The notes below the pieces were generated by a model. It searched no databases. It was given only the letters and a program-made list of their open reading frames with translations, and was not told the origin of the DNA. Of a stretch of 64,000 nt of DNA, positions 12,590 through 48,870 are shown in pieces. Origin of the DNA: Calothrix sp. NIES-4105 (GTDB taxonomy: Bacteria > Cyanobacteriota > Cyanobacteriia > Cyanobacteriales > Nostocaceae); NCBI RefSeq assembly GCF_002368415.1, contig NZ_AP018290.1, positions 8,857,717 to 8,921,716 of the forward strand, given 5' to 3'. Position numbers and translations under genes: made by a program. Position 1 is the first letter of the stretch; each line of letters starts with the position of its first letter.

Positions 12590-12691
12590 GGCAACGGATA
12601 ATGAACGGATGTAACGGATGAATTATTCGTTACAAGCAAAAACTTGTTCAATAAAACAAACTATCCGTTACATCCGTGTTCATCCGTTGCC
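12590..12691. repeat. inverted-repeat element with ends GGCAACGGAT
   Basis: A 102-bp element whose arms (12590-12612 and 12663-12691) are imperfect reverse complements built from CGGATGTAACGGATG words. The same words recur at 20148-20382 and near 37630. The last base of the right end completes the stop codon (TAG) of the neighbouring minus-strand gene at 12691. Confidence 0.75.
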
Positions 12692-13044
12692 TAAATATCT
12701 TCAACTTCCAAACGCGCGGCAGTAACAGCATCAAAAGCAAAAGCCAAAATCATTGGCATAGGACATTTTAGCAAGTAAGTAGAAATTACTGCAACAAACG
12801 TACCAACAATCGCTGATATTGACCAGAATTTTTCACTGCTGGTCATTCCATTTTTGGACTTAATATTTCTTAAAATTTTTCCAGGAATTGGTTCGGGCAT
12901 TACCGCTCCTGGAGGAAAAGCCCAATAGTTGTTTTTACGTTCCATGAACAAGTCAGTCCAGCCGTTTTCTTGGCACCAATCTTCAACCCATTCATCGTGG
13001 AAATGTTTAATATTAACGTTGGGGCGGGAGGTTAGGCTTAACAT
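12691..13044 (-). CDS. hypothetical protein with C-terminal membrane segment
   Basis: A 117-residue protein of unknown function. The N-terminal half is soluble and aromatic-rich (HFHDEWVEDWCQENGWTDLF, NNYWAFPPGAVMPEPIP). The C-terminal half holds a hydrophobic hairpin (FWSISAIVGTFVAVISTYLL and PMPMILAFAFDAVTAARLEV). The pattern of Trp and Pro looks like a conserved cyanobacterial protein, but I know no named family. It ends exactly at the edge of a repeat element and lies on the same strand as the serpin, about 175 bp upstream of it. Confidence 0.65.
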   Translation of the reverse strand: MLSLTSRPNVNIKHFHDEWVEDWCQENGWTDLFMERKNNYWAFPPGAVMPEPIPGKILRNIKSKNGMTSSEKFWSISAIVGTFVAVISTYLLKCPMPMILAFAFDAVTAARLEVEDI

Positions 13045-13531
13045 GTTGTTTAGATGACTATATATATTGGTTTGAGTAATTTAAGTTCTTGAGCGTTGCC
13101 GTAGCTAATCTACTTTTGCTTTAAGCGCTTTAATTTAGGAAATGTTAAATTATATTACGCACTGCATTATTCGGTTTCGTTACTTTTCAACCATATCAGC
13201 TTTAAATGAGTGAAGGGAAGAAATGAAAACAAACTTTACTTTTAAATTCCAATCTAAATATTTCGCAACAATTAAGATTGATAGGTATTGATTCATTAAT
13301 ATCTAACTTATTAAGTAAAGCTTAAAAAGGCGGTAATTAGCATCTTCATTGTTCGGTATTCTACTAAGCGATAGTGTTGAGAATCAAATCATAAAAATAA
13401 TAAAAAATTGTTCACTGTTAAACTCAGATAATTGAGTGTCAATATGTATATAGGTATAAAAAGCAAGGTAGTGCAACAATTCGCGGTAAGCTAAAAATAG
13501 CGGTAATCTTCTTTCGTATGACTGTATATAT
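13045..13531. other. divergent intergenic region, nothing recognised
   Basis: A 487-bp AT-rich region between divergent genes. It must hold both promoters. I see scattered poly-A and TATATA strings, none with a convincing -35 partner, and no RNA gene or repeat family member. Confidence 0.35.
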
Positions 13532-14038
13532 ATGTGGCGCCTCCTAAATGTTTACCATCAAGTAGTGGTAGTTTTGGTAATTGTAGTTTGTGTAGTATTT
13601 GTTTCTGATAACGCGCTTGCGGATTGGACGCATCCGATGTCTTTTAGCAATGCGGAATTGTCAAGAAGAGATTTTTCTGGGCAAGAATTACAAGCGTGTG
13701 AGTTTTCTAATGCCAATATGGAGTTAGTAAATTTTAGCAATGCTGATTTACGTGGGGCAGTAATGAGTGCTTCGGTGCTAACAAAAGCAAATTTACACTC
13801 GGCTAATCTATCGAATGCGCTAGTAGATCAGGTAGACTTAACAGGGGCAGACTTAAGTAATGCAATATTGCAAGAAGCGCTGCTGCTCCGTGCCACGTTC
13901 AAGGATGTGAATATTAATGGTGCTGATTTTACTGATGCAGTCCTTGACGGCGCACAGGTTAAAGAACTGTGTAGCAAGGCTAGTGGAGTAAATGAAGAGA
14001 CAGGTATTAATACTCGTGATTCGCTAGGGTGCAGATGA
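13532..14038 (+). CDS. exported pentapeptide-repeat protein, thylakoid-lumen type
   Basis: A 168-residue protein with an N-terminal hydrophobic signal (VVVVLVIVVCVVFVSDNALA) followed by mature DWTHPMSFSNAEL. About 15 pentapeptide repeats of the A(D/N)LXX kind (NADLRGAV, KANLHSANLSNA, GADLSNAIL, GADFTDAVLDGAQ) form the predicted right-handed quadrilateral helix. A C-terminal motif with two Cys (LCSKASGVN, TGINTRDSLGC) closes the fold. This arrangement matches lumenal pentapeptide proteins of cyanobacteria and chloroplasts, whose function is unclear. It overlaps purK by 4 bp (ATGA), so the two are probably cotranscribed and coupled. Confidence 0.85.
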   Translation: MWRLLNVYHQVVVVLVIVVCVVFVSDNALADWTHPMSFSNAELSRRDFSGQELQACEFSNANMELVNFSNADLRGAVMSASVLTKANLHSANLSNALVDQVDLTGADLSNAILQEALLLRATFKDVNINGADFTDAVLDGAQVKELCSKASGVNEETGINTRDSLGCR

Positions 14039-15294: not shown

Positions 15295-15347
15295 CTTATA
15301 AAAAATAAAAAAATGCCGTGCGGATGCACAACATGATTTTTGGAGGC

Positions 15348-15353: not shown

Positions 15354-15359
15354 GGGGTT

Positions 15360-15541
15360 GTTGTACTGCAACGTTGGTGACTGCCATCAAGTTTTTTGAT
15401 CTATGTCTTTAAGAATTAGGGAACCAATTATTGTTCGTGGCAGTAGACTGAGCTTGTACTCAGAAACTTTAAACGAAACACAAGGCTCCCACCTGGTTAT
15501 ACCAGGTCATAAACTTAGGTAAAACGGCGTCGCGGTATAAC
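15360..15541 (+). ncRNA. ssaA: 6S RNA
   Basis: 6S RNA mimics an open promoter and binds the housekeeping RNA polymerase holoenzyme. The assignment rests on four observations. First, position directly behind purK, as known for cyanobacteria. Second, a consensus -10 box at the right distance. Third, a length of about 182 nt, the expected size. Fourth, a long closing stem: 15360-15373 pairs with 15528-15541 over 14 positions with one mismatch and two G-U pairs, leaving a large central region for the open-promoter bubble. A terminator hairpin follows 10 bp later. The exact 3-prime end may be processed. Confidence 0.87.
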
Positions 15542-15550
15542 AAAATTATT

Positions 15551-15752: not shown

Positions 15753-17042
15753 GTGTTTCCAGCCTCTATATTCAAACTGGACAGCGGTTTAACGTTAATA
15801 CATCAAGAAATACCCACAACACCCGTAGTTGTGGCAGATGTTTGGGTCAGTGCGGGTAGTCTAAGAGAACCATTAGCTGGGTTCGGAATAGCGCATTTCC
15901 TAGAGCATATGATATTCAAAGGTACGTCAAAACTGCCCGCAGGAGTTTTTGACTACAATATTGAAAATCAAGGTGGGGTCAGCAATGCAGCAACAAGTTA
16001 CGACTACGCGCATTATTCTATTACATCCACCAACTCTTATTTACACTCTTCTTTCCCACAGCTAGCAGAAATGCTGTTAAATGCTGCAATTCCCGATGAT
16101 GAGTTAGAGCGAGAACGTGATGTTGTATTAGAAGAAATTCGGTCGTATAATGATGACCCAGATTGGGTAGGATACCAGCATTTAGTTCAGAGCATTTATC
16201 AACAGCATCCCTACGGACGTTCAATTTTGGGTAACGAAGCTGATATTGAGCAGCACTCTAGCTCCAAGATGCGATGTTTTCACCGCACTTATTATCGACC
16301 AGAAAATATGACCGTCGTTATTGTAGGTGGAATTCCTGTTGCACCTGCTTTAGAATTAGTAAAAAAGACTTTTAAATCAGATAGTCAGCCTTCGTTATCT
16401 AACAATAATAAAAACGATAATGATAATGATATTAACTGTAATTATCATTCTAGAGAATTTGAACCATTTATAGCAGGTATTCGGCGCCAGGAAATAAACT
16501 TACCGCGTCTTGAAAACGCACGTTTGATGATGGCATGGACTGGGCCTGGAGTACATCAGCTAACAACGGCATGTGGATTAGACTTATTATCAGTATTATT
16601 AGCATCCGGTAGAACTTCACGTTTAGTAAGAGACTTACGTGAAGAACAGCAGTTAGTGCGCTATATTTGCTGCAATTTTTCGCTGCAAAAAGAATCAAGC
16701 TTATTTACAATTAGCGCAATTTTAGAACCAGAATATCTAGAAAAAGTCGAGGGAGCAATTCGCTTTCATTTGCAAGATATTATTACTAATGGTATCAGTG
16801 AACATGAACTAAGGCGCGCTCAACGGTTATTGTGTAACGACTTTGCTTTTTCAACCGAAACACCCAATCAAATAGCTGGACTTTACGGTTATTACAACAC
16901 AATTTCTAATGTTGAGTTAGCTGTAACCTACCCAGACCAAATTTTATCGTTTAACACCCAAGAACTGCAAAAATTAGCGCAAGAATATCTTTCGCCAAAT
17001 CAATATGCGGTAACTACGCTCAAACCATCAGTGATTGAATAA
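15753..17042 (+). CDS. M16 zinc peptidase, catalytic subunit
   Basis: Processing-peptidase-like metalloprotease of 429 residues. The inverted zinc motif HFLEH is at residues 48-52 (GIAHFLEHMIFKGT), with the downstream zinc-ligand Glu in the stretch ERERDVVLEEI. The second half has the usual M16 C-terminal domain (LASGRTSRLVRDLREEQQLVRYI). An Asn/Asp-rich insert (about 213-232) is non-conserved. GTG at 15753 is the only sensible start. It ends 1 bp before the next gene, which encodes the paired non-catalytic M16 protein. Substrates of these cyanobacterial pairs are not settled. No signal peptide is visible. Confidence 0.93.
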   Translation: MFPASIFKLDSGLTLIHQEIPTTPVVVADVWVSAGSLREPLAGFGIAHFLEHMIFKGTSKLPAGVFDYNIENQGGVSNAATSYDYAHYSITSTNSYLHSSFPQLAEMLLNAAIPDDELERERDVVLEEIRSYNDDPDWVGYQHLVQSIYQQHPYGRSILGNEADIEQHSSSKMRCFHRTYYRPENMTVVIVGGIPVAPALELVKKTFKSDSQPSLSNNNKNDNDNDINCNYHSREFEPFIAGIRRQEINLPRLENARLMMAWTGPGVHQLTTACGLDLLSVLLASGRTSRLVRDLREEQQLVRYICCNFSLQKESSLFTISAILEPEYLEKVEGAIRFHLQDIITNGISEHELRRAQRLLCNDFAFSTETPNQIAGLYGYYNTISNVELAVTYPDQILSFNTQELQKLAQEYLSPNQYAVTTLKPSVIE

Positions 17043-17043
17043 A

Positions 17044-18315
17044 ATGACAATTACGCCACGAAAATCTCATGTTCATCGCACAGTATTAAATAATGGTATT
17101 GTCGTTATAGTTACAGAAAATCCAGTAGCTGATATTGTTGCTGCGCGTTTATTTATCCGTGCTGGAAGTTTTTGTGAGCAACCGGAAAAAGCGGGTTTGT
17201 CGCATTTATTATCAGCAGTAATGACGAAAGGATGTGATGGACTTTCGAGCATGGAAATTGCTGAAGCTGTAGAGTCGGTTGGAGCTTCTTTAAGTGCTGA
17301 TAGCACAACTGATTATTTTTTAGTATCGCTAAAAACAGTAACGGCAGATTTTGTTGAGATTTTAGCGTTAGCAGCAAGGATATTACGATTTCCAACTTTT
17401 CCAGAACTCGAAGTTGAACTTGAAAGACGACTAGCACTTCAAGATATTCGCTCTCAAAAGGAACAACCGTTTAGCGTTGCATTCGAGCAGCTACGTCAAG
17501 CAATGTACCAAAATCATCCTTATGCAATGTCAGCATTAGGAGATGAAGTAACAATGAGCAGTTTAACGCGCGCTGATTTAGTTGAGTTTCATAACACCTA
17601 TTTTCGTCCCAATAATTTAGTTATTAGCATAGCTGGACGTATAACGAGTGAAAACGCAATTGCATTAGTTGAAAAAATCTTTGGTGACTGGAAAGATACT
17701 CATCAAACGATTTCTACAAACTTATACGACATCGAAATTGCTCCTCAAAGTGTCTTCACACATCAAAATACACAGCAGTCGATTTTAATGTTAGGGTATT
17801 TGGCGCCATCGGTACATTCTTCTGATTATGCTGCACTTAAATTATTATCTACATATTTAGGTAACGGACTGTCGAGTCGATTATTTGTTGAGTTACGTGA
17901 AAAACGCGGTTTAGCTTACGAAGTATCAGCACTTTATCCAACTCGGTTATCGAATGCTGCATTTGTTGTTTACATGGGAACGGCGCCAGAAAATACTAAA
18001 ATAGCACTTACTGAACTCCAAAACGAAGTCGCCTTACTGAGAACTGTACAATTAGAAGAAACATCGCTCCAAGCAGCAAAAAATAAAATTTTAGGACAAT
18101 ATGCACTAGGTAAACAAACTAACGCTCAACTTGCCCAATTATACGGTTGGTATGAAACATTAGGACTTGGAATTGAGTTTGACTCAGAATTCCAAGACTT
18201 AATTACAGCAGTCACATCAAAAAGCGCTCAATCCGCTGCATGTACTTATTTACGGGAACCTTATATATCACTAGTAGGTCAAAAAGAAGCGATTGACAAT
18301 GCTTTAAATAAGTAA
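17044..18315 (+). CDS. M16 peptidase-like, non-catalytic partner
   Basis: A 423-residue paralog of the preceding gene. The zinc motif is degenerate (HLLSA at 54-58 instead of HxxEH), so it should not bind zinc. The C-terminal domain keeps the Arg/Tyr pair in KRGLAYEVSALYP that helps bind substrate in M16 heterodimers. This matches the catalytic plus R/Y subunit arrangement known for bacterial M16B pairs. The ATG at 17044 follows the previous stop by one base; a TTG nine bases earlier is less likely. The two genes surely form one operon and probably one heterodimer. A tandem-repeat block begins right after its stop. Confidence 0.92.
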   Translation: MTITPRKSHVHRTVLNNGIVVIVTENPVADIVAARLFIRAGSFCEQPEKAGLSHLLSAVMTKGCDGLSSMEIAEAVESVGASLSADSTTDYFLVSLKTVTADFVEILALAARILRFPTFPELEVELERRLALQDIRSQKEQPFSVAFEQLRQAMYQNHPYAMSALGDEVTMSSLTRADLVEFHNTYFRPNNLVISIAGRITSENAIALVEKIFGDWKDTHQTISTNLYDIEIAPQSVFTHQNTQQSILMLGYLAPSVHSSDYAALKLLSTYLGNGLSSRLFVELREKRGLAYEVSALYPTRLSNAAFVVYMGTAPENTKIALTELQNEVALLRTVQLEETSLQAAKNKILGQYALGKQTNAQLAQLYGWYETLGLGIEFDSEFQDLITAVTSKSAQSAACTYLREPYISLVGQKEAIDNALNK

Positions 18316-18316
18316 A

Positions 18317-18494
18317 AAGTGCGCTCGTGCTGAGTGCTGAGTGCTGAGGAGCGGAGTTAGGAGTTAGGAGTTAGGAGTTAGGAGTTAGGAGTTAGGAGTT
18401 AGGAGTTAGGAGTTAGAATACTACTCAGCACTCAGCACTTTCTACTCAGCACTATTACTCAGCACTTTCTACTCAGCACTATTACTCAGCACTT
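18317..18494. repeat. short tandem repeat block, 9 x GAGTTAG
   Basis: Nine perfect copies of GAGTTAG run from 18354 to 18416, flanked by GTGCTGAGT units on the left and their reverse complement ACTCAGCAC on the right. The outer blocks can fold back on each other. This is the STRR class typical of heterocystous cyanobacteria. It begins next to the stop of the M16 gene. Confidence 0.92.
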
Positions 18495-19791: not shown

Positions 19792-20145
19792 ATGAAGCAC
19801 TTTTTATTAACTTTAGTGGGTTCTGCTGTAGCTCTACTTATTACAGCGCATATTGTCCCTGGCTTTTTTGTTAAAAACTTTGTTGCTGCTCTTGTTGCTG
19901 CTTTCGTTATTGGGTTAGTAAATGCTTTCATCCGTCCTATTTTAGGCTTTTTTGCATTCCCAATTACTTTGGTCACTTTTGGATTATTTACATTTGTCCT
20001 TAATGCATTTGCACTAATGATTGCTAGCGCTTTGACCCCTAGTTATGGTTTTATTGTTAGAGGGTTTGTTCCGGCATTTTTAGGTTCAATAGTATTATCT
20101 ATCGTTTCAAGTATTATTAATTACCTTTTGAGAGCAGTTGATTAA
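19792..20145 (+). CDS. phage holin family / YvlD-like small membrane protein
   Basis: A 117-residue protein with four predicted membrane helices (FLLTLVGSAVALLITAHIV, FVAALVAAFVIGLVNAFI, ITLVTFGLFTFVLNAFALMIA and AFLGSIVLSIVSSIINYLL). The motif GLVNAFIRPIL and the spacing are typical of the Phage_holin_4_2 domain found in many bacteria. Despite the domain name there is no sign of phage genes here, and a role in envelope stress is only a family-level guess. Its stop codon lies 2 bp before an inverted-repeat element. Confidence 0.82.
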   Translation: MKHFLLTLVGSAVALLITAHIVPGFFVKNFVAALVAAFVIGLVNAFIRPILGFFAFPITLVTFGLFTFVLNAFALMIASALTPSYGFIVRGFVPAFLGSIVLSIVSSIINYLLRAVD

Positions 20146-20147: not shown

Positions 20148-20382
20148 TGGCAACGGATATAACGGATATAACGGATGTAACGGATGTTGTAGCACAAAAT
20201 CCTAGATGTGTATTGAAGTAATTATTTTTACCACAGAGGCGCAGAGGGCACAGAGGGGTATAGCAATAAACCACGTAATCCGGAGGATTTCCCGCTCTTT
20301 AGACACGCTCGTACACAAAGAAAGAAAAAAGAAGAGAGAAGACCCCAAAACTTTATTAGAAGCACCGTTACATCCGTTGCCA
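20148..20382. repeat. MITE-like element between convergent genes
   Basis: Ends TGGCAACGGATATAACGG (20148-20165) and CCGTTACATCCGTTGCCA (20365-20382) are reverse complements with one mismatch. The interior carries an unrelated repeat (ACCACAGAGGCGCAGAGG type) and no gene. The right end supplies the last codons and stop of the CbiG-like gene. The same end sequence bounds the element at 12590-12691. Confidence 0.78.
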
Positions 20383-20790
20383 ACTGACCGCTAATGTAAC
20401 GGCGCCTTTTAAATCTTGAACTGAACGAATAATTTGTTTGGGTACACGTAGAGACGTTACATGTAACGTCTTTACAGATGCGGCAAGAATGGCGGCAGCT
20501 TCGGCTACACTTAGAGTTTGAACTATACTACCAACAATTTGTGATGGGTTGGGTACATTCACATTTTGTAATTCTTCAGCAGTAAAAAATATTAAAGGTA
20601 AATTACGCGAATAGCAATACTCAATTAAACCAGCTTCGTTTGCTTTACTATCTATAGTGGCAACTCCGGCAATGGCGCCAAGAGATAAGTTGTTTTCTTG
20701 GAACACATGTTTTATTGCTGCTTCGATAAATTTGCACTCCGTTCCACGCTGGCAACCAATACCAACCCATAAATTGCTTTGATGGCTCAT
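20368..20790 (-). CDS. CbiG C-terminal domain protein (cobalamin biosynthesis)
   Basis: Stand-alone 140-residue version of the C-terminal domain of cobalt-precorrin-5A hydrolase CbiG, marked by LWVGIGCQRGT near the start, then VATIDSKANEAGL, LPLIFFTAEEL and VAEAAAIL. In the anaerobic cobalamin route CbiG opens the lactone and releases the C20 fragment; the role of a lone C-domain is uncertain. Three parts derive from repeats. The ATG lies in the end block of the adjacent IS element. Residues around 106-114 come from a 28-bp palindrome (20448-20475). The final WQRM and stop are in the CGGATGTAA repeat. Gene integrity should therefore be treated with some caution. Confidence 0.85.
   Translation of the reverse strand: MSHQSNLWVGIGCQRGTECKFIEAAIKHVFQENNLSLGAIAGVATIDSKANEAGLIEYCYSRNLPLIFFTAEELQNVNVPNPSQIVGSIVQTLSVAEAAAILAASVKTLHVTSLRVPKQIIRSVQDLKGAVTLAVSWQRM
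20448..20475. repeat. 28-bp palindrome inside the CbiG-like gene
   Basis: GTAGAGACGTTAC followed by ATGTAACGTCTTTAC is a near-perfect palindrome (one mismatch) and belongs to the family also seen at 24740-24763, 28101-28128 and 36425-36452. It is in frame in the coding sequence. Confidence 0.85.
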
Positions 20791-20857
20791 AAGATTACAT
20801 GGTATGCGGGAAACGAGCGAGGCTTTAGCTCTTCCTAGGGAAGCGACCCAAGTGACT

Positions 20858-21084: not shown

Positions 21085-22440
21085 ATGGCAAAGAAGAAAA
21101 AAGATAGAAAGACTATAGGAGTACAGCAAGTGCTGTTACAGCCAGATGTAGAAACACAAGCAATATTGTGCTACTTGTGTGAGCAGTCGGGCAAGTTGTA
21201 CAACAACGGGGTTTACTTTGCACGTCAAACATTTTTCAAAACAGGGAAGTTGTTGACAGGTAAATTTGATGTAGCTTTTGAACCATCTGTTGCAAAGACA
21301 TTAATCGCCCAATCCTTGCCATCAACACCGATGCAGCAAACGCTAATGTCGGTAACAGAAGCATTTAAGTCTTTCAAAGAATTGCGGTCTTTATTCAAGA
21401 GTGGTCAATTGCATTTTAAGCCACAAGTACCTAATTATTTAACAGGTTCTAAGTTGTTTAAAGTTGCTTATCCAAATTCAGGAGCGCAAAGACCAACTAT
21501 TGTTGACGGGCAGCTTAGATTTTCTTTAGGCTTGACAATTAGACGATGGTTTGGAATATCTGATTTTTTCCTCCCTATGCCTTCAAATCTTGATTATTCT
21601 AAGGTTAAAGAGTTTACTATTCTCCCTAAAAATGGCGCTTTTTACCTTGAAATGTCTTATGAGATTGAGGAGAAGAAACACGAGCTAGATATTAATCAAG
21701 CTTTATCTATTGACTTGGGAACTGCGGATAACTTAGCAGCATGTGTTGATACTTTGGGTAATTCCTTATTAATTGATGCACGTGCGATGAAGGCAATGAA
21801 TCAGTTATGGAACAAGAAAGTAGCTACCCGCGCATATGATAAACCCCAAGCATATTGGGATAGTTGGCTAGACCGTGTTACCCGTAAACGCAATCACCAA
21901 ATGCGTGATGGGATTAACAAAGCAGCAAAGTTAATAATTGACCATTGCTTAAAATATGGCATTGGAACATTAGTAATAGGGTGGAATGAAGGCTTTAAAG
22001 CTAACGCTAATATTGGACGAGTTCAAAATCAGAAGTTCGTCCAAATGCCGTTAGGTAAATTGAAAGACAGATTAGAACAATTGTGTAATTTGCATGGTAT
22101 TAGGTTTCAAGTAACTGAAGAATCCTACACGTCAAAAGCAAGCTATTTAGATGGAGACTCCCTACCCGTTTATGGTAACAAACCTTTATGGTGGAAAGCA
22201 TCTGGGAAGCGCGTTCAACGTGGATTATACCGCACAGCAAATGGTTTAATTGTCAATGCCGATTTGAACGGCAGTGCGAATATTTTAAAAAAAGTAGCTA
22301 GAAACTTAAGCCTGGACTTAAGCAGACTAGGTAGGCGGTGTTTGACGACCGCAGCAAGGATAAGAGTCTGGAACGGTTCGAGTAAGAATCCTCTTCCTGG
22401 TAGTCTCCTGTTAGCAGAATCTCAGTGTCTAAAGACCTGA
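21085..22440 (+). CDS. tnpB: TnpB, RNA-guided RuvC-like nuclease, zinc finger lost
   Basis: 451-residue TnpB of an IS605-type element. TnpB proteins are nucleases guided by an RNA from the element's 3-prime end and are ancestors of Cas12. The RuvC triad looks intact: D210 (SIDLGTADN), E302 (VIGWNEGFK) and D393 (NADLNGSANI). Between E302 and D393 the usual four-Cys zinc ribbon is absent: the segment reads EESYTSKASYLDGD with no CxxC pairs. The N-terminal wedge and REC-like region (1-200) is present and full length. A guide RNA would be expected over the gene end and the right flank (about 22300-22451). No tnpA is present. Confidence 0.93.
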   Translation: MAKKKKDRKTIGVQQVLLQPDVETQAILCYLCEQSGKLYNNGVYFARQTFFKTGKLLTGKFDVAFEPSVAKTLIAQSLPSTPMQQTLMSVTEAFKSFKELRSLFKSGQLHFKPQVPNYLTGSKLFKVAYPNSGAQRPTIVDGQLRFSLGLTIRRWFGISDFFLPMPSNLDYSKVKEFTILPKNGAFYLEMSYEIEEKKHELDINQALSIDLGTADNLAACVDTLGNSLLIDARAMKAMNQLWNKKVATRAYDKPQAYWDSWLDRVTRKRNHQMRDGINKAAKLIIDHCLKYGIGTLVIGWNEGFKANANIGRVQNQKFVQMPLGKLKDRLEQLCNLHGIRFQVTEESYTSKASYLDGDSLPVYGNKPLWWKASGKRVQRGLYRTANGLIVNADLNGSANILKKVARNLSLDLSRLGRRCLTTAARIRVWNGSSKNPLPGSLLLAESQCLKT

Positions 22441-23048: not shown

Positions 23049-23169
23049 AAGTACATTTACAGAAATAGCACTATGTTAATTGTACTATGCATAATACAGC
23101 ACAGGCGGGACGCCTATGCTACAAAAACTCCTGACTCCTAACTTTTAACTCCTAACTCTTAACTGATAA

Positions 23170-28553: not shown

Positions 28554-28730
28554 TTTTTGCCTCCTATACTTTTACAGCTAGCGTTTAGTTTATGCAATTC
28601 TATACTTTATGCAGTTACAATGCCTTTAACTCCAGCTAACTGTTTTCTACTGTTGCTAACTAATGTAACAAGCTGTGAGTCTAGTTGGCAGCCGGTGTAA
28701 CCGTACAAGTAAAGCGTATTATCTCTAATT

Positions 28731-33400: not shown

Positions 33401-33772
33401 TTCGATAGCTGGTAGCTTGGCGCCGATTAGCTCCACATTATATTTATCTAAAACCCCATTTTTTGCCAATGCCACAGCAATATTCAACGCAGTTTGTCCC
33501 CCCATCGTTGGCAACAAAGCATCGGGACGTTCTTTAGCAATTACTTTTTCTACCAACTCCGGCGTTAGTGGTTCAATATAAGTACGGTCAGCAGTTTCCG
33601 GGTCGGTCATGATTGTAGCTGGGTTTGAGTTCACTAGTACTACTATATAACCTTCCTCACGTAGTGCTTTACAAGCTTGAGTACCCGAATAATCAAATTC
33701 GCAAGCTTGTCCAATAACGATGGGCCCAGAACCAAGAAGCAATATTTTTTTGATGTCGTTGCGGCGAGGCAT
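30443..33772 (-). CDS. carB: carbamoyl-phosphate synthase large subunit
   Basis: Makes carbamoyl phosphate for arginine and pyrimidine synthesis, with CarA supplying ammonia. The 1109-residue protein starts canonically ([30 protein letters not shown]). It holds two ATP-grasp synthetase halves (first with [17 protein letters not shown], second with [18 protein letters not shown]) and a C-terminal MGS-type allosteric domain. It is about 28 residues longer than usual because four 21-bp repeats insert SGQN(L/S)VV units at about 657-684, just before [16 protein letters not shown]. The last three residues and stop come from another repeat. The frame is intact, so I expect a functional enzyme. Confidence 0.96.
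31721..31804. repeat. 4 x 21-bp tandem repeat inside carB
   Basis: Four units of GACCACT(A/G)AATTCTGACCACT, each 21 bp and so 7 codons, lie in frame between conserved CarB segments. A last partial unit runs into GAGTGC, the common STRR word. Confidence 0.93.
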
Positions 33773-36417: not shown

Positions 36418-36424
36418 GCAGGCA

Positions 36425-36452
36425 GTAGAGACGCGATTAATCGCGTCTCTAC
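36425..36452. repeat. perfect 28-bp palindrome after the DUF2079 gene
   Basis: Identical to the 28-mer at 28101-28128; arms GTAGAGACGCGATT and AATCGCGTCTCTAC. It starts 8 bp after the stop codon and could act as a transcript-end hairpin. Confidence 0.9.
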
Positions 36453-36605
36453 TGCTTACATTTCAAGCATTTTGAGAAATATTTTTATTTTTTTTTCAAA
36501 AATTACTGATAATTATTTGCACTTGTAGTATGCTATTAAAAAGGGCTAATTTGCTATCTTTCTCAACTGGCGCGTGATTTTATTGGATTTTTAAAGAGGA
36601 TTTTT

Positions 36606-37645: not shown

Positions 37646-38452
37646 TTACATCTCATCAAGGCGCCGTCTTAGAAAGCTGCTGAAAAAATCAATTACCGTT
37701 ACAACGACAAGCAGCACGAGCATAAAAGTTGTAGCTTTATTATATTCAAACCCATCGATATAGCTTTTTAACTCAAACCCAATACCACCTGCTCCAACAA
37801 CACCAAGAACTGAAGCCGCGCGAATGTTGTATTCAAACATCCAGAGCGTGTAGCCCAATGCTAATGGTAAGACTTGGGGCACAATACCATATTGAGTAAT
37901 TTGCCAACGTGAGGCGCCAATAACTTGTAAAGATTCTATAGAACGAGAATTCACAGCTTCAATAGCTTGTTGATAAAATTTTGCAAGGTAGCCGATAGTA
38001 TAAATGCTCAAAGCTAAAGTTCCAGCAGGGGCGCCAAGTCCGGTAGCAGCGACAAAAATCAAGCCTAAAATAATTGAAGGCACAGAACGGACAGCATTTT
38101 GGATAAAGTTGGCTAACCATTGCAACCATATAGGTGCAATATTACTAGCACTGGCAATCGCAATTGGCACTGAAATAATTGCCCCAATTGTTGTTCCCCA
38201 AAGTGACATTTGTATTGTTTGTATAAGTGACTGTACAGCATTGGGAAAAACATCAAGATTGGGTGGGAAAAACCGAGAAATAAAATCTGTAACGTAAAAC
38301 CAGCTATTATTTAGAACTTCTGCGTTTATACCTATACCTTCGAGTGACCAAGCATAAACTATAACTAATAAAATAACTACAGGGATAATTAATAACTTAC
38401 CTACCCAAGGATGCCGCCCAGTTAATTTATTTATATGAGTTAAATTATTCAT
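37646..38452 (-). CDS. phnE: phosphonate/phosphite-type ABC transporter permease
   Basis: A 268-residue inner-membrane permease. About six helices are visible, and the cytoplasmic coupling loop is EAVNSRSIESLQVIGASRWQITQYGIVPQVLPL, the EAA motif of binding-protein-dependent importers, in the form typical of PhnE. It overlaps phnC by 4 bp (ATGA) and is the last gene of a phnD-phnC-phnE set on the minus strand. Substrate could be phosphonate, phosphite or phosphate esters. No C-P lyase or phosphite dehydrogenase gene is in the window. Confidence 0.9.
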   Translation of the reverse strand: MNNLTHINKLTGRHPWVGKLLIIPVVILLVIVYAWSLEGIGINAEVLNNSWFYVTDFISRFFPPNLDVFPNAVQSLIQTIQMSLWGTTIGAIISVPIAIASASNIAPIWLQWLANFIQNAVRSVPSIILGLIFVAATGLGAPAGTLALSIYTIGYLAKFYQQAIEAVNSRSIESLQVIGASRWQITQYGIVPQVLPLALGYTLWMFEYNIRAASVLGVVGAGGIGFELKSYIDGFEYNKATTFMLVLLVVVTVIDFFSSFLRRRLDEM

Positions 38453-40535: not shown

Positions 40536-42950
40536 ATGATAAAGCAACCATCAGTATTAATAATTAGTGATTTTCCAGAAACTAGGGAGAATTTTCGACG
40601 TTATTTACTGGAATCAAAATTTACATTCAGAATATTGGTAGAAAAGTCGGTTAGCGCTAGTTTACTCTTGTGTCAACAGCAAATTGATTTAATTTTATTT
40701 GACTTTAGTTTACCTGATTATAATGCGTTAGAATTTTTAGCTAAATTACGAGCATCAGTCAATGAGAACTGTCCAGCGGTAATAATACTAGGTGAAAACG
40801 ATGTAGCACTGGCAGTTAAGCTGATCAAAAGCGGAGCAAAAGATTATTTAGTTAAACAACAATTAACAAAAGAAATATTATTACAAGCTGTTATAGACGC
40901 AGTTATAAAAAAAGATATTGAGCTTCTTCAAACAAATCAAACAAATCAAACATCATGTGCGAATGAATTAGCAGAACTTAATCAGGTCGAACAAGCTTTA
41001 CGTGAAAGTGAAGAGAAATTAAGCTTTATTCTTAACAACGTTAATGTCTCAATTAGCAGGTTTTGTGTATTTGCTAATCGTGAGTGGCAGTATGACTACT
41101 ATTCATCGGGTTGCGAAACAATTTTTGGTTACACAAGTCAAGAGTTAGTGGCAGATAAAAACCTCTGGTTGTCGCGCGTATTGCCCCAAGATTTAGAGCA
41201 GGTGATTACACCAATGTTTGAAGATATATTTGCCGAACGCAAAATTGACTATCAATATCGATTTTATCATAAAGACGGCAGTTTACGATGGATTCGTGCA
41301 ACCCTAACTTCTCGACGTGATGATATTCGAGATGTTTGGTATGTAACTTCAGTTGACAATGATATTACTGAACAGAAACGCGCGGAGTTAGCGCTACAGG
41401 AAAGCGAAGCATTATTTCGAGGTATCTTCGAGTCGGGTTTGATAGGGATTTTATTGTGGAATTTGGAAGGTCAAATTACCGATGCCAACAATGTTTTTAC
41501 TCAAATGACGGGTTACAGTCGCGAAGAATTGCAATCGGGAAAAATTTACTATAGTGATATTACACCAAAAGAGTATCATCAACTTGATATCGATAAACTT
41601 CAACTATTATTGAAGGGAGAAAGTTATATCCCTTATGAAAAAGAATATATATGTAAAGATGGCACTTGCCTACCAATAATGATTGGTTGCGCTTTTTTAC
41701 CAGGTTTTACTGACCGTGGTGTTGCATTTGTCTTGGATATTAGCGACCAAAAACGGTTGCAACAAGAAAAACAAAGGCTTTTAGCTACTGCTGAAGCGGC
41801 ACGTAATCAAGCTGAAATTGCTAATACTACAAAAGATGAATTTTTAGCAATAGTATCGCATGAATTGCGGTCGCCTTTAAACTCGATTTTGGGCTGGGCA
41901 AAACTCATGCAAACTCGTAAGTTAGACGAAAATGCAAAACTTCGCGCGCTCCAAACTATCGAACGCAATGCGAAAGCACAAGCTCAACTAATCGAAGATT
42001 TACTCGATATTTCCCGGATGATTCAAGGGTTACTTCGTTTGAATATGGCGCCTGTTAATTTGATTAATATTATAGAGGCTGCAATTGATGTAGTTAGTCC
42101 ATTAGCTCAAATCAAACAAATTAATATTGAATTAAACGTGGATAATTCTGTAGGTTATGTTTCAGGTGACTTTAACCGCTTACAGCAAATCGTTGTTAAC
42201 TTGTTAACCAACGCCGTTAAATTTACACCAGCTCGGGGAAAAGTTGAAGTAAGTTTATCAGTTAATAATTCATCTCATGCTCAATTTACTGTTACGGACA
42301 CAGGTAAAGGTATTAGTCCTGACTTTCTACCTCATGTCTTTGAAAGATTTCGTCGCGCGGATAGTACAACAACAAGAAGTAAAGATGGGTTAGGACTTGG
42401 GTTGGCAATAGTTTACAACCTCGTAGAATTACATAATGGTAAGGTGACAGCTGCAAGTCCAGGTGTGGGAATGGGAGCTACATTCACCGTTACATTACCG
42501 ATTTTAGATAATTTGGCGCCGCAATTACCGCAAGACTCAGAAAATCCTGAAGTCTCCTTGTCTGGAATAAAATTATTAGTTGTTGATGATGATAAAGACT
42601 GCTGTGAATTTGTGGAGTTCATACTTACAAACGCGGGAGGCGCAGTTAAAATAGCTACATCGGTGATTGAGGCATTTAATATTCTTCAAGATTTTCACCC
42701 CAATATTATTATCAGCGATATTAGTATGCCCGAACAAGATGGCTACATGTTTTTAGAAAATTTACGCTTACAAGAATCACAAACAAGCCAAAATAAAATC
42801 CCAGCAATTGCTTTAACTGCTAATGTTTCAGAGGAGGATAAACAAAAAGCCATTAAGGCAGGTTTTCAATTCCATTTATCTAAACCAGTTGAACCTGAGA
42901 TGTTGCTTAGTACGATAGCTGAGGTTTTGATCCCCCCCAACCCCCCTTAA
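40536..42950 (+). CDS. hybrid sensor histidine kinase with two receiver domains
   Basis: An 804-residue soluble two-component protein with no membrane segment. In order it has: an N-terminal receiver domain (1-125) with acceptor D56 in LILFDFSLPDY; a coiled linker; PAS 1 (about 160-285, YDYYSSGCETIFGYTSQELV); PAS 2 (about 288-405); HisKA with H442 in FLAIVSHELRSPLNSILGWAKLM; an ATPase domain (VVNLLTNAVKFTP, DTGKGISPDFLPHVFERF, GLGLGLAIVYNLVELHNG); and a C-terminal receiver (about 680-800) with D728 in IIISDISMPEQDG. The signal is unknown. The C-terminal PPNPP and stop codon are encoded by a dispersed CCCCCCAACCCCCCTTAA repeat. Confidence 0.93.
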   Translation: MIKQPSVLIISDFPETRENFRRYLLESKFTFRILVEKSVSASLLLCQQQIDLILFDFSLPDYNALEFLAKLRASVNENCPAVIILGENDVALAVKLIKSGAKDYLVKQQLTKEILLQAVIDAVIKKDIELLQTNQTNQTSCANELAELNQVEQALRESEEKLSFILNNVNVSISRFCVFANREWQYDYYSSGCETIFGYTSQELVADKNLWLSRVLPQDLEQVITPMFEDIFAERKIDYQYRFYHKDGSLRWIRATLTSRRDDIRDVWYVTSVDNDITEQKRAELALQESEALFRGIFESGLIGILLWNLEGQITDANNVFTQMTGYSREELQSGKIYYSDITPKEYHQLDIDKLQLLLKGESYIPYEKEYICKDGTCLPIMIGCAFLPGFTDRGVAFVLDISDQKRLQQEKQRLLATAEAARNQAEIANTTKDEFLAIVSHELRSPLNSILGWAKLMQTRKLDENAKLRALQTIERNAKAQAQLIEDLLDISRMIQGLLRLNMAPVNLINIIEAAIDVVSPLAQIKQINIELNVDNSVGYVSGDFNRLQQIVVNLLTNAVKFTPARGKVEVSLSVNNSSHAQFTVTDTGKGISPDFLPHVFERFRRADSTTTRSKDGLGLGLAIVYNLVELHNGKVTAASPGVGMGATFTVTLPILDNLAPQLPQDSENPEVSLSGIKLLVVDDDKDCCEFVEFILTNAGGAVKIATSVIEAFNILQDFHPNIIISDISMPEQDGYMFLENLRLQESQTSQNKIPAIALTANVSEEDKQKAIKAGFQFHLSKPVEPEMLLSTIAEVLIPPNPP

Positions 42951-42954
42951 TAAG

Positions 42955-43183
42955 GCTACAGTGTACACATATTTTTATAATCCTTCTCATATTCCCCCTT
43001 TGTGTCCTACCCTACCATAAGCGGATATCCTTCGGATAACGGGAAAACCTCCGGTTTACGTGACGAGAGTGGTTACTCCTTTAATGAACCACAAAGGTCA
43101 CAAAGGGCACAAAGAAAGAGGAGGAAAGTAGAGAGTTATCTCGTACTTAAGCAACTTTAAAGGACTTGTGTATACACAGTAGC
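42955..43183. repeat. MITE-like element with GCTACNGTGTACACA ends (copy A)
   Basis: Left end GCTACAGTGTACACA (42955-42969) and right end TGTGTATACACAGTAGC (43167-43183) are near-perfect reverse complements. The interior holds CACAAAGG words (GGTCACAAAGGGCACAAAG). A second copy in opposite orientation is at 62185-62363. Confidence 0.75.
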
Positions 43184-43212: not shown

Positions 43213-43437
43213 TTAAATTCCTGTAATGGTAATTTTGGCGCCTTGTTGAGATTTTTCGACTTTGATTTGTGTTCCTAGTTCTTCACCTAAAGCGGGAACG
43301 TAGGTAATTATGCCAACTAATTTGTCTTGTTGCCCTAGTGACTGTAAGATACTTGAGACACTTTGTAAGGTTTCAGCGTCTAATGTCCCAAATCCTTCAT
43401 CTATAAATAAACTACCAAGTTTGGCGCCAGTTTCCAT
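43213..43437 (-). pseudogene. sbcC: 3-prime remnant of sbcC
   Basis: Only the last 72 or so residues of the SbcC exonuclease ATPase remain: TGAKLGSLFIDEGFGTLDAE contains Walker B and the D-loop, followed by the typical end LGQQDKLVGIITYVPALGEELGTQIKVEKSQQG. The intact protein is about 1000 residues. No Walker A, coiled coil or sbcD is nearby. The break lies at about 43437, where the VapC-like gene takes over in another frame. It is therefore a dead gene fragment. Confidence 0.85.
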
Positions 43438-43931
43438 AATAAAGCCGCATACTTATCGCTTAAATAACTTTTGTGCATTGTTTTGATATAGCCCAAAACA
43501 TAATTCGGCGAATCATAAGGCAATCTTCCATCACGTATTACCAAAGTATCAGAAACAAGGTTCAAGCTATGCTGGATTGCTGTTGCCGCAATCCAGATAT
43601 CATGATCATCGAAGCCCAGAGAGGCAATACTTGTCCCTCGACGTTTACTTTTGTCCTTGGGAGCAAACTTATTAAATATCGCTGGCTTAAGTTGACTATA
43701 TAAAATAGCTGTTTCTTCGTCTATAAAGTATAAATCAACACTTTGCAGGAATGATTGAACTACATCAAAGTTTTGAGCTTTACGTTCTGATTTTTCAGTC
43801 ATATACAACAGTTCACCATATGTTATAATACTAATTCCTATTTCATTAGTAGAACGTGAGCGTAAAGCAGTAGTCACTTTAGGGTTATTATTAATGATGT
43901 AACTGCAATGGTTAGTGTCGAGTAGATACAT
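43401..43931 (-). CDS. VapC-like PIN-domain toxin, altered C-terminus
   Basis: A 176-residue PIN ribonuclease-like toxin. The conserved acidic residues are D5 (LLDTNHCSYII), E40 (ITYGELLYM) and D111 (DDHDIWIAATAIQHSLNLVS). After LNLVS the usual short ending with its DSDF-type Asp is replaced by about 49 residues that do not look like VapC (RDGRLPYDSPNYVLGYIK...). The last 12 (KLAPNLVVYL region) are read out of frame from the sbcC remnant. The gene is thus chimeric and probably inactive or weakened, consistent with the broken antitoxin next to it. Confidence 0.75.
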   Translation of the reverse strand: MYLLDTNHCSYIINNNPKVTTALRSRSTNEIGISIITYGELLYMTEKSERKAQNFDVVQSFLQSVDLYFIDEETAILYSQLKPAIFNKFAPKDKSKRRGTSIASLGFDDHDIWIAATAIQHSLNLVSDTLVIRDGRLPYDSPNYVLGYIKTMHKSYLSDKYAALLWKLAPNLVVYL

Positions 43932-45539: not shown

Positions 45540-45721
45540 AAGCTCTTGCGCGTCAATACTGCAGCTTTTTATACATTTAGCCCAGTATATTCGCTTTGTT
45601 TTAGGATTTGGGTATAATTTAAGATGTTAATGTTGGGTTACGCGATAGCTTCAGCCAACCTACGGTGGCAACTTTTGGTTTTTTGTTTAGTCTCTATATA
45701 TATGTAAGAAATTTTGGACTT

Positions 45722-46447
45722 ATGCTGAAGCGGTTGTTGTGGGTATTTGGCGGCGCCCTAGGTATTGTGTTTATAGTTTTAATAGTAGTGTGGCGCCAAG
45801 CAACGTATTTACCTAGTTGGTATGTTTTGTCGGCGCCAACACCAAATGCTACTTCAGTTCAGGAGACTAAACCGAAAGATTTAACGCGCGAAGAAATCTG
45901 GAGCAAAGTTAGTGATACGTTGAAAAAACAATCATCTGCAGGTGAGCGTGTTGGAACAGTACAGTTAAACTCTGATGAAATGAATCGCTTGATTTTTTCA
46001 GAGATACAGGTTAACGAGGAAGTTACAAGCGATGCTAAGTTAGAAAAAATTATTGTTGGTAAAAATACTCAATTTCGTGATGGTAAGTTGGTTGTAGGCG
46101 CCGTTATTAATTTACAGGAATTGACGCAGCACAAAGAATTGCAAGGTGGACGCGCGGACTTTGCTCAAGCTTTTTTAAATTTACCTATCGTTAAAGACCG
46201 TCCTGTATATATTGAAGTCGAAGCCACACCAATAGTCAAAAATCGAAAAATTGCTTTAGACTCACCCCGCATCAAATTAGCTAATGTGAGTATGACTGTT
46301 GAGGAATTATCTAAATATTTAGGTGTTTCACCTGCGTTTATTAATCAACGTATTACCCGCGAGCGCGCGTTAGTTCCGATGTCCGTCCAGGATGTGAAAA
46401 TACAGGGAGACATAATTTCGATTAGCGGCACAGGTACGGCACGGTAG
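45722..46447 (+). CDS. membrane-anchored hypothetical protein
   Basis: A 241-residue protein with one N-terminal membrane helix (LLWVFGGALGIVFIVLIVVW) and a soluble extracytoplasmic domain (VGTVQLNSDEMNRLIFSEIQ, DRPVYIEVEATPIVKNRKIAL, NVSMTVEELSKYLGV). The start at 45722 (MLKRLLWVFG) is chosen over a GTG 57 bp upstream because the membrane helix then begins properly. The domain looks like a lipid- or polymer-binding beta sheet but I assign no family. The stop TAG lies in the terminal repeat of the adjacent mobile-like element. Confidence 0.7.
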   Translation: MLKRLLWVFGGALGIVFIVLIVVWRQATYLPSWYVLSAPTPNATSVQETKPKDLTREEIWSKVSDTLKKQSSAGERVGTVQLNSDEMNRLIFSEIQVNEEVTSDAKLEKIIVGKNTQFRDGKLVVGAVINLQELTQHKELQGGRADFAQAFLNLPIVKDRPVYIEVEATPIVKNRKIALDSPRIKLANVSMTVEELSKYLGVSPAFINQRITRERALVPMSVQDVKIQGDIISISGTGTAR

Positions 46448-46730
46448 GGGCGGGTTAACCAACAATTCATCATATCAACGAAACGCCATTTAAACCCGCC
46501 CCCATCCCAAATACCAACAATTCATCATATCAACGAAACGCCATCTAAACCCGCCCCCATCCCAAATACCAACAATTCATCATATCAACGAAACGTCATC
46601 TAAACCCGCCCCCATCCCAAATGTTAAACGGCGCCATAAATATACCCATCCACCACATATATCATGATGCCGGGGCGGGTTTAGAGTGATTGTTTGTTGA
46701 GGTGATAGATTGTTGGTTAACCCGCCCCTA
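46445..46730. repeat. MITE-like element: 22-bp perfect TIRs and 3 x 55-bp tandem repeats
   Basis: The ends 46445-46466 (TAGGGGCGGGTTAACCAACA plus AT) and 46709-46730 are exact 22-bp inverted repeats. Inside are three 55-bp tandem units starting at 46458, 46513 and 46568 with only one or two changes. No coding capacity is present. The left end supplies the stop codon of the upstream gene and the right end the last codons and stop of the convergent Nudix gene. Confidence 0.88.
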
Positions 46731-47151
46731 CCCTTGGACGTATTCCATAATTACGGTATTGCCAATAATCGTGCAAAATTTTATTGTGGTCGAAACATAG
46801 ATTGCTGGGCAGGCGCCATTGTTCAAATATATCTAGACCTTTTGCGTCATCTCCCGCTTGGGGTTTTCCTGTGGCGGTCGCTAGGAATACAATACTTAAT
46901 GTGTGTTGGCGCGGGTCGCGACTGGGGTCAGAATAAACTAGGAATTGTTCGATTAATTCAACCTGTAAACCAGTCTCTTCTTGTGCTTCGCGTTTTGCAG
47001 CAACCTCAACTGATTCGCCATAATCGACAAATCCACCTGGAATTGCCCACCCTAATGGCTCGTTATGACGTTCAATTAAGACTATTGGTCGATGAGGACG
47101 GTCGATTAGTTCGATGATGATATCAACTGTTGGCGCCGGATTTCTATACAT
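46717..47151 (-). CDS. Nudix hydrolase
   Basis: A 144-residue Nudix protein with the complete box [24 protein letters not shown]. The start [15 protein letters not shown] and the following [20 protein letters not shown] are typical of the ADP-ribose or nucleotide-sugar pyrophosphatase-like group rather than MutT; the exact substrate is open. The tail [19 protein letters not shown] ends inside the right terminal repeat of the neighbouring element, which provides Val-Gly-Ala-Gly and the TAA stop. malQ is divergently transcribed 62 bp away. Confidence 0.88.
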
Positions 47152-47213
47152 GGAATTCGTGCTGAATTGTTGGGTTAATGTAAAATTTTATATTTTCTAT
47201 TTGGTGAATATCT

Positions 47214-48728
47214 ATGCCATTTCCGAGATCCAGTGGTGTTTTACTGCATCCTACTAGTTTTCCCAGTCGATTTGGAATTGGGGACTTAGGATACGAAGCT
47301 TATCGTTTTATTGATTTTTTGGAAAGTAGTAATCAACAGTACTGGCAGGTTTTACCTCTCGGCCCCACTGGGTATGGTAATTCTCCGTATATGTGTTACT
47401 CAGCTATGGCAGGAAATCCCTTTTTAATTAGTTTGGACAAGTTACGCGAAGACCATTTGCTCGCAGATTGGGATTTGGCGGATATACCAGCATTTCCAAC
47501 GCATAAAGTTGATTTTAATGCTGTGTTCCCGTACAAAACCAATTTACTCAAACTTGCTTGCAACAACTTTAAAAATCAAGCAGATTCAAAACTGCGCCAA
47601 GAATTTGACACTTTCTGCGAAACTAAAGCGAAGTGGCTGGATGATTATGCTTTGTTTATGGCTTTAAAGGAAGCACATGATGGCGCCAGTTGGTACACTT
47701 GGGAACCAGGATATGCAAAACGCAAACCTGACAGCATTGCCACCGCGCGCAAAGAACTCGAAGATTTGATATTTTACCAAAAATTCGTCCAGTTTCAATT
47801 CTTTCACCAATGGTCAGAACTAAAAACTTACGCTAATAAACGCGGTATCGAAATTATTGGTGATATCCCAATTTATGTTGCCCACGATAGTGCAGATGTA
47901 TGGGCAAATCCAGAAATTTTTTGTTTGGATGAAGAAACAGGTGAAACTTTATTAGTAGCAGGGGTTCCACCAGATTACTTTAGTGCTACAGGTCAACTGT
48001 GGGGAAACCCAGTTTACAAATGGGAAGAATTAGAGAAACAAGACTTTGCGTGGTGGATAAAACGTTTTGAAGTCATGCTCGACTACGTTGATATTATTCG
48101 TATCGACCATTTTCGAGGATTTGAAGCTTTTTGGGCTGTTCCCCAAGGTGAAGAAACAGCAGAAAATGGTAAATGGATAAAGGCGCCTGGTGAAGCATTA
48201 TTTAAAACGATTGCGAAAAAGTTAGGTAAATTACCTGTCTTAGCTGAAGATTTAGGGGTAATTACACCAGATGTTGAAGCATTACGTGACAAGTTTGAAT
48301 TTCCAGGTATGAAGATACTACAATTTGCTTTTGGTTCTGACCCTGGAAATCCGTTTTTACCGTTTAATTACACTCGAAATTCTGTAGTTTACACAGGTTC
48401 TCACGATAACGATACCTGTGAGGGTTGGTTTAGCCAAGCCAGCGATTGGGAGAAAGATAAACTTCGGATGTATCTAGGTAATATCAACCATGATGGCGCC
48501 CACTGGGATTTTATCCGATTGGCGTTAAGTTCAATTGCAAATCAAGCAATTATTCAACTGCAGGATGTTTTAGGACATGGTGGTGACGCGCGGATGAATT
48601 TTCCAGGTAAAGCTGAAGGTAACTGGGAATGGCGATATCACGACCATGAATTAACACCCGAACTCATCACTAAATTTAAAGACTTAACTACATTATATGG
48701 ACGGGCACCAATAAAAAGTAGAAAGTGA
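47214..48728 (+). CDS. malQ: 4-alpha-glucanotransferase (GH77)
   Basis: Amylomaltase that transfers glucan segments during glycogen and maltodextrin metabolism. The 504-residue protein is full length. GH77 landmarks are SSGVLLHPTSFPSRFGIGDLG, GYGNSPY, DIPIYVAHDSADVWANPE, the nucleophile D298 in IRIDHFRGFEAFW, the acid/base E345 in LAEDLG and the stabilising D398 in GSHDNDT. The C-terminus has WEWRYHDHEL. The gene stands alone, divergent from the Nudix gene. Its TGA stop is the first part of a GTGAGTC repeat block. Confidence 0.96.
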   Translation: MPFPRSSGVLLHPTSFPSRFGIGDLGYEAYRFIDFLESSNQQYWQVLPLGPTGYGNSPYMCYSAMAGNPFLISLDKLREDHLLADWDLADIPAFPTHKVDFNAVFPYKTNLLKLACNNFKNQADSKLRQEFDTFCETKAKWLDDYALFMALKEAHDGASWYTWEPGYAKRKPDSIATARKELEDLIFYQKFVQFQFFHQWSELKTYANKRGIEIIGDIPIYVAHDSADVWANPEIFCLDEETGETLLVAGVPPDYFSATGQLWGNPVYKWEELEKQDFAWWIKRFEVMLDYVDIIRIDHFRGFEAFWAVPQGEETAENGKWIKAPGEALFKTIAKKLGKLPVLAEDLGVITPDVEALRDKFEFPGMKILQFAFGSDPGNPFLPFNYTRNSVVYTGSHDNDTCEGWFSQASDWEKDKLRMYLGNINHDGAHWDFIRLALSSIANQAIIQLQDVLGHGGDARMNFPGKAEGNWEWRYHDHELTPELITKFKDLTTLYGRAPIKSRK

Positions 48729-48870
48729 GTCGTGAGTCGTGAGTCGTGCTGAGTGATGAGTGAGTCGTGAGTCGTGCTGAGTAATACTCCTAACTCAATA
48801 CTCCTAACTCAATACTCCTAACTCAATACTCCTAACTCCTCTCAGCACTCAGCACTTTTCACTCAGCACT
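48724..48870. repeat. short tandem repeat block between malQ and the RodZ-like gene
   Basis: Begins with GTGAGTC copies, passes into CTCCTAACTCAATA units repeated about four times, and ends in CTCAGCACTCAGCACT. It touches the stop codons of both flanking convergent genes. Confidence 0.88.

Follow-up and report, generated by a model that had tools for sequence, protein, structure and literature searches.

Repeats that lie at or over stop codons are known for single families: repetitive extragenic palindromes (REPs; Di Nocera et al. 2013, PMC3733652), heptamers (Rehm et al. 2015, PMC4692102) and TAACTGA direct repeats (MacGregor 2015, PMC4679880). The termini of GTAG REPs often provide a TAG stop, and convergent REPs are located within 20 bp of 3′-ends; heptamers were found close to or overlapping stops in Xanthomonas and Nostoc sp. 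PCC 7120; and the TAACTGA repeats of the Beggiatoaceae, which occur also in cyanobacteria, extend over stop codons with stops in all frames. Here, we analysed a stretch of 64,000 nucleotides from Calothrix sp. NIES-4105 (the window; bases 8,857,717-8,921,716 of an 11.06-Mb contig, genome total 12.04 Mb), for which an initial annotation had stated that dispersed repeats supply the stop codons and last residues of at least nine unrelated genes. In this genome unrelated repeat families stand together at stops, they replace one another at orthologous stops of congeners, and the C-terminal residues follow, a combination that is new as far as our searches go. In the text available, a search of open-licence papers retrieved no account of unrelated families replacing one another at orthologous stops.

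The repeats are of several kinds, namely heptamer arrays of the short tandemly repeated repetitive (STRR) type, a family termed N9 that resembles miniature inverted-repeat transposable elements (MITEs), and REP-type palindromes, two of which lie beside tyrosine transposase genes. The GTAG REPs and their REP-associated tyrosine transposases (RAYTs) share with our palindromes the small size, the terminal GTAG and the position near 3′-ends of convergent and co-directional genes, and they have been reported in Anabaena and Nostoc punctiforme; the available text of PMC3733652 differs in treating REPs only and in giving no comparison of ortholog ends for replacement by unrelated families, and heptamers and N9 fall outside its families. 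The coding-strand heptamer arrays in PMC4692102 likewise lie mostly 0-50 bp from the stop, including all that overlap it, with their 5′-side anchored to the gene. However, their units are GGGAATC and GGGGA(C/T)T, and mixing with palindromes or MITEs at the same ends is not described in the accessible sections. The TAACTGA arrays, as far as the available text of PMC4679880 goes, differ in lying mostly just upstream of start codons. The heptamers of the window have the units GTGCTGA, GAGTTAG and others; they are 7-bp tandem repeats, dispersed and intergenic, and one 17-mer has 433 forward and 355 reverse matches in the genome. They represent the STRR family of heterocystous cyanobacteria, which is equally dispersed, hairpin-forming and intergenic; STRR and small dispersed repeats of these organisms were reportedly described by Mazel in 1990 and Elhai in 2008. 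The available part of PMC2670836 characterizes STRR as 7-bp units that form hairpins and whose function is unknown.

Inspection of the 3′-ends of 53 open reading frames (ORFs) in the window placed nine of the nine stops named beforehand in or against repeats. Pfam agrees with all eight named gene identities, and 12691-13044 belongs to the slr1957 family. Repeats also touch the stops of 17035-18315, 23170-24591, 51858-52823, 58889-61741 and 45665-46447. The window is richer than the part of the genome that we sampled: a repeat lies over the stop of 10 of 52 genes, as compared to 105 of 1376 in 2.4 Mb. The elements at these gene ends are as follows.

12590-12691, minus strand: N9 element, nonamer CAACGGAT/ACGGATGTA, inverted arms; start approximate; adjoins the stop of 12691-13044.
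18316-18494, plus strand: STRR heptamer element with outward inverted arms, directly 3′ of the TAA of 17035-18315.
20149-20386, no strand assigned: N9 insertion of 238 bp, 4 nt past the TAA of 19792-20145; empty site in G002-G006.
23126-23171, minus strand: heptamer array just past the TAG of 23170-24591.
28726-28924, minus strand: heptamer array at the TGA (28920-28922) of the sigma factor gene 28920-29999 (minus strand).
30314-30459, minus strand: heptamer element encoding Ser-Ala-Glu and the TAG (30443-30445) of carB.
36403-36453, plus strand: P1 repeat GTAGAGACG encoding the last residues and the TGA of the DUF2079 gene (34972-36417, plus strand).
42930-42965, plus strand: K repeat CCCCCCAACCCCCCTTAATAAGGCTAC supplying PPNPP and the TAA of the hybrid kinase.
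46443-46732, no strand assigned: H element with GGGCGGGTT arms (inverted, 46443-46503 and 46672-46732) and a 55-nt tandem core.
48725-48870, no strand assigned: heptamer element between the convergent malQ and RodZ-like genes, one arm per stop.
51746-51859, no strand assigned: heptamer element between the convergent 51391-51732 and 51858-52823, covering the TAA of the latter.
61736-61776, plus strand: head of a heptamer element at the TAA of 58889-61741; three congeners have the W palindrome there.

The carB gene (30443-33772, minus strand) terminates with NSAE-TAG inside GTGCTGAGTAGAAAGTGCTGAG, and the RodZ-like gene (48859-49668, minus strand) with RSAE-TGA (48859-48861) inside a word of the same type. 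Both the sigma factor gene and malQ (47214-48728, plus strand; TGA 48726-48728) have their stop at the head of a heptamer array. The two ends of the H element provide the TAG of 45665-46447 (plus strand) and Val-Gly-Ala-Gly-TAA of the Nudix gene (46717-47151, minus strand), respectively. A complete P1 palindrome (36425-36452) follows the stop of the DUF2079 gene. The hybrid kinase (40536-42950, plus strand) ends IPPNPP-TAA in CCCCCCAACCCCCCTTAA, and its ortholog in G006 ends four residues earlier with AKILTN. In the case of 12691-13044 (minus strand), GCAACGGAT directly follows the gene, and the congeners keep the stop position as TAG or TAA. The last residues and the TAA of the CbiG-like gene (20368-20790, minus strand; end CGGATG-TAA) come from the N9 insertion at 20149-20386.

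The carB gene also contains an in-frame heptamer-derived insert of 21-nt units in a linker (31719-31806), which differs in residues and length in all six congeners inspected. Together with the repeat-derived terminus this indicates that the same gene takes repeats in a linker and at its end.

To determine whether the positions at stops exceed chance, we analysed six 400-kb blocks (2.4 Mb out of 12.04 Mb), in which 1983 genes were called by our own dicodon model and not by curated annotation. The 1743 genes of at least 300 nt served for coverage profiles, and 1468 well-supported genes, yielding 1376 stop ends, for the edge test. Repeats were recognized by a dictionary of 1155 words, each of them a 12-mer that is predominantly noncoding and has at least eight noncoding occurrences. 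Of the 1376 gene ends, 105 have their stop covered by a repeat, and at 141 more a repeat begins within 10 nt beyond it; 12 were covered at the start side. Repeat edges at or within 3 nt of the stop amounted to 167, whereas 53 are expected if repeats are placed at random in the gaps that hold them; at starts the respective figures were 19 and 18.6. The repeat cover rises from 1.0% at positions -30 to -21 to 4.0% at -6 to -3, 6.8% in the stop codon and 21% at +11 to +30, whereas the start codon has a cover of 1.2%, and the DNA 21-30 nt upstream of it one of 6.4%. Moreover, repeats are found in 52% of 335 convergent gaps, 31% of 1159 co-directional and 24% of 345 divergent gaps, and 109 of 149 single blocks between co-directional genes are closer to the stop (p = 1.4e-8). 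A dictionary-free finder of arrays with a period of 5 to 11 gave 27 versus 8.6 expected on the stop side and 2 versus 3.0 on the start side of the same 2.4 Mb. Thus, the occurrence of repeats at and over stops is real and beyond chance, and both the nine named genes and the enrichment at gene 3′-ends asserted in the initial annotation are borne out.

The distances of repeat edges to stops, which the annotation had proposed to measure, bear out only one part of the expectation. The edges pile up at the stop in a peak spanning -4 to +9. Downstream of the stop, however, they fit random placement (62 versus 53 expected at 1-3 nt, 79 versus 71 at 4-10 nt); the excess is carried by the 105 covering repeats, since the null distribution cannot place a repeat over a stop. 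The edge density is 17 per nt in the stop codon (51/3), 11 in the last codon (32/3) and approximately 1.7 at -6 to -20; past the stop, it is 25 per nt at 1-3 nt, 15 at 4-6 nt and 12 at 7-10 nt. Hence, the stop and the last codon behave as the adjacent intergenic DNA, and the claim that repeats insert preferentially at stops is not supported as stated. Heptamers are the stop-side neighbour in 108 cases, 80 of them within 5 nt. The stop is TAG in 42 of the 105 covered genes versus 176 of 807 without a repeat (p = 9e-5).

We then compared the window with six genomes of the same genus (G001-G006), which cover it in good order at approximately 76-90% DNA identity. Usable orthologs were available for 47 genes, corresponding to 293 gene-genome cells; 21085, 40536, 43401, 54831 and 56180 were left out, their orthologs being missing or doubtful. 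A repeat lies within 9 nt of the stop in 73 cells and over it in 37. These repeat-bearing cells fall on 22 genes, as compared to 39 expected under shuffling, a clustering that partly reflects shared ancestry and is therefore not counted as independent insertions. Half of the 22 genes (11) have unrelated families in different genomes. Between the same stop of 37646-38452 and the same downstream anchor we found N9, the repeat T (TTGTGGAATGGGCA) or the palindrome Z; 58889-61741 is followed by heptamers or W, depending on the genome; 17035-18315 by P1 (TTTGTAGAGACG), a different heptamer array or no repeat in the congeners; and the end of carB carries heptamers in five genomes, the palindrome G in one and none in another.

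In several genes the C-termini change along with the repeats. Among the six genomes with data, malQ has six different ends. The C-terminus of carB reads NSAE versus VNN and is two residues longer than in congeners without the heptamer element; 17035-18315 ends with NK, NNL or NKC, the CbiG-like protein with WQRM versus YSTTLKT and the DUF2079 protein with VVET versus VT. The C-termini of carB, malQ and the CbiG-like gene are shifted by 1 to 5 residues. Among ortholog pairs, which are not independent, the stop is displaced in 59% of 85 covered/free pairs versus 22% of 484 free/free pairs; the "free" orthologs may still hold other repeats, the dictionary having been built only from the window's own genome. 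Orthologs lacking the same repeat often end differently, as the initial annotation had anticipated, but of the 16 comparable genes that have covered orthologs, 7 (12691, 23170, 28920, 36905, 37646, 45665 and 48859) keep the stop in its place, and at 48859 the last residues differ even so. Taken together, repeats do alter C-termini, over 1 to 5 residues, but they are also located at ends that are variable in any case, and in many instances the stop codon is all that they exchange.

The individual families were characterized further. Of 129 noncoding arrays, 80 have a period of 7. In half of the heptamer-bearing gaps both arms are present, facing outward in 78 of 99 cases, and the arms of N9 (TTGGCAACGGATATAACGGATGTAACGGAT) do so in 37 of 39 two-armed gaps. 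The MITE-like nature of N9 is indicated by terminal inverted repeats (GGCAACGG ends at 20149-20386) together with the absence of this copy from five congeners; at this insertion AACT may form a 4-bp repeat, which was not seen at a second N9 case in G004. The palindromes P1, Z, W, G and H start with GTAG or GTAA. GTA precedes the core of Z in 91-100% of its copies, 88 of which were found in 2.4 Mb at up to 7 mismatches, and the own TAG of G (GTAGGGTGCGTGA) serves as gene stop in 8 of its 29 occurrences. Y1 transposases are matched 23 times in the genome. Palindromes flank four RAYT-like genes on both sides: Z copies at L171 (184.7 bits to the RAYT model NF047646, cut-off 80), H arrays at L065 (Y1_Tnp 29.7 bits, cut-off 23; NF047646 68 bits, below the cut-off of 80), AGATTCCCGACTTCTT at L169 (81.5 bits to the RAYT model, same cut-off) and AAGCACTTCAGTGCTT at L172 (94.8 bits). 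The palindrome P2 lies beside Y1 genes at L167 and L160, on one side only, and no copy of W or G was seen at the Y1 loci inspected. A TA target duplication was considered and dismissed: the palindromes do have a TA adjoining the core, but the G before and the C after the TA are also conserved, placing the TA within the palindrome, and the single clean P2 empty site lacks a TA duplication.

Other features of the window include a TnpB-family gene (21085-22440) without a counterpart found in the stretches of six relatives. It is adjoined by one of two identical 35-nt repeats (20787-20821 and 52865-52899) that are 32 kb apart. A VapC-like gene (43401-43931; 65 bits, below the cut-off of 140) has no ortholog found in the relatives' stretches, and the sole Rfam match in the window is a 6S RNA at 15360-15542, between two genes.

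Strong folding characterizes flanks in which a repeat lies no more than 10 nt from the stop, with a median z of -3.1 between co-directional genes (100 of 107 flanks) and -2.3 between convergent genes (91 of 91). Repeat-free 3′-flanks had a median z of -0.8 (100 of 344 and 100 of 110, respectively), and sequences upstream of starts -0.2. This folding makes a role as 3′-hairpin possible. According to the available text of PMC13289151, resemblance to intrinsic terminators is limited to 22% of the transcription-unit ends that have been located in Synechococcus elongatus, and Rho is absent, which leaves room for a hairpin role and is not proof of one. A hairpin likewise very close to the stop is reported from E. 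coli. There, REPs within 15 nt of stop codons are said to stall ribosomes, as reported by Liang, Rudd and Deutscher in 2015.

For a phylum-wide comparison, 80 cyanobacterial loci with malQ were fetched. The malQ 3′-flank is periodic at the stop in 29 of 78 loci (L191 and L221 were left out), and in 20 of these the period is 7, with a large variety of units; the malQ end was picked for its striking look and is thus no unbiased sample of generality. The flank has a z below -2 in 25 of 36 loci despite unrelated sequences. In distant cyanobacteria (L199, L200, L212 and others), heptamer arrays with very different units begin at the malQ stop, and several units contain the stop codon itself (CAGTGAC, CAGTTAA).

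We consider it moderately probable that these observations are best explained by tolerated, possibly useful 3′-hairpin repeats in constant turnover, which collect at tolerant gene ends. Several kinds of short hairpin-forming repeats (STRR, N9 and REP-type), some beside their own tyrosine transposase, would spread through the genome, and insertions within genes and at promoters would be lost. The DNA from the last one or two codons through the stop codon into the 3′-flank would represent one tolerant stretch, so that repeats pile up against and slightly over gene ends. Since translation into the end of many elements meets a TAG, TAA or TGA after a few codons, an insertion in the last codons would end the protein near its old end, with 0 to 5 residues changed. 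The elements fold strongly, and in this Rho-less lineage some of them probably persist as 3′-hairpins of the mRNA, with different families replacing one another at the same gene end. Once an element soon brings a stop, tolerance predicts the observed densities and no attraction to stops is needed, which would argue for tolerance rather than targeting.

Several results weigh against this explanation or narrow it. Repeats over a stop lie mostly in the stop-bearing orientation (heptamers 47:4, N9 18:1), which at first looked like strong proof of stop supply. The bias is, however, equally strong 1-10 nt beyond the stop (42:0 and 17:1, respectively), where no stop is needed, and is largely due to the outward-facing arms that most elements have at both ends. 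Restricted to one-armed gaps, a set that, gene calling having been confined to protein genes, includes very long gaps and among these one that holds an rRNA operon, heptamers lose significance (8/11 and 18/28) and N9 alone keeps its bias (11/12 and 9/10). Stop supply as a sieve is thus not proven, and the statement that only stop-carrying repeats survive, though plausible, finds no support here. Near-consensus copies are already found within 20 nt of stops (N9 6/9, Z 10/21), which an insertion preference predicts likewise. A within-gene test of 13 genes showed stops displaced in 0.47 of covered versus 0.33 of free cases (p = 0.30, not significant); some C-termini are simply labile, and the difference between pairs lies mostly between genes. 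The remodelling of C-termini is real in the examples of carB, the CbiG-like gene, 17035-18315 and the DUF2079 gene, but its rate is not significantly above the same-gene background. Finally, in the 80 loci from other cyanobacteria, arrays located between co-directional genes show no shift towards the stop (30/59), and with the malQ end excluded (74 loci, crude ORFs) starts (12 versus 4.8 expected) and stops (16 versus 5.8) behave alike. The strong stop bias is hence established for this genome and, by examples, for its genus, but not for the phylum, and the interpretation given in the initial annotation is partly supported overall.

An insertion targeted to the stop or the DNA just after it, by transposases or heptamer-copying machinery that prefer a TA/TAG target or single-stranded DNA at transcription ends, would account for the edge peak, the GTAG or GTAA start of five families, the use of the palindrome G's TAG as stop and the young N9 and Z copies near stops. 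It would also fit the one-armed N9 blocks in convergent gaps (L001-L120), which abut the stop with the 5′-end in 10 of 12 cases and with the 3′-end in 0 of 12. Yet the downstream distances match random placement in gaps, unrelated families would all need one shared target, and no consistent target duplication was found in the few clean empty sites. The age of the copies gives a mixed picture: P1 copies within 20 nt of a stop (5/18, 7/18, 6/12 and 12/16) show the opposite trend, diverged copies being closer than fresh ones, and Z, N9 and P2 reveal no age trend. We therefore regard targeting as improbable. A need for a terminator or RNase-protecting stem near the stop, by which any landing hairpin is kept, is likewise unlikely as the main cause. 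The strong folding of the flanks, the unrelated but folded malQ flanks and the richness of convergent gaps would be in line with it, as would the lack of Rho in cyanobacteria and the mostly non-canonical transcript ends of S. elongatus in the available text of PMC13289151; on the other hand, repeat-free 3′-flanks barely fold beyond chance, so that a hairpin is not required, and the ribosome melts a stem overlapping the stop.

That short words were over-read and that repeats, filling the small intergenic space, touch some stops by chance is very improbable. Although gaps with repeats hold little other DNA and random placement alone yields the expected 53 edges at 1-3 nt, the number of covered stops, the excess of edges with starts as internal control, the shift of co-directional single blocks towards the stop and the agreement of dictionary-free arrays all argue against it. 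A more far-reaching alternative, which we put forward with considerable doubt, is that gene 3′-ends act as sockets. The stop, the last residues and the 3′-hairpin of the mRNA would then be exchanged as one module, supplied by the repeat family that happens to be active; unrelated selfish elements would be swapped at the same end under selection for the hairpin, and the C-termini would turn over along with them.

In one genome, with start codons as control and relatives for comparison, very different repeats thus share the stop as a site and replace one another. For annotation this calls for caution, as the position of the stop and the final residues may derive from a repeat in core genes such as carB. 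Moreover, it makes testable how transcripts end in bacteria that lack Rho and mostly lack canonical terminators, and to what extent small repeats account for the C-terminal differences among closely related species.

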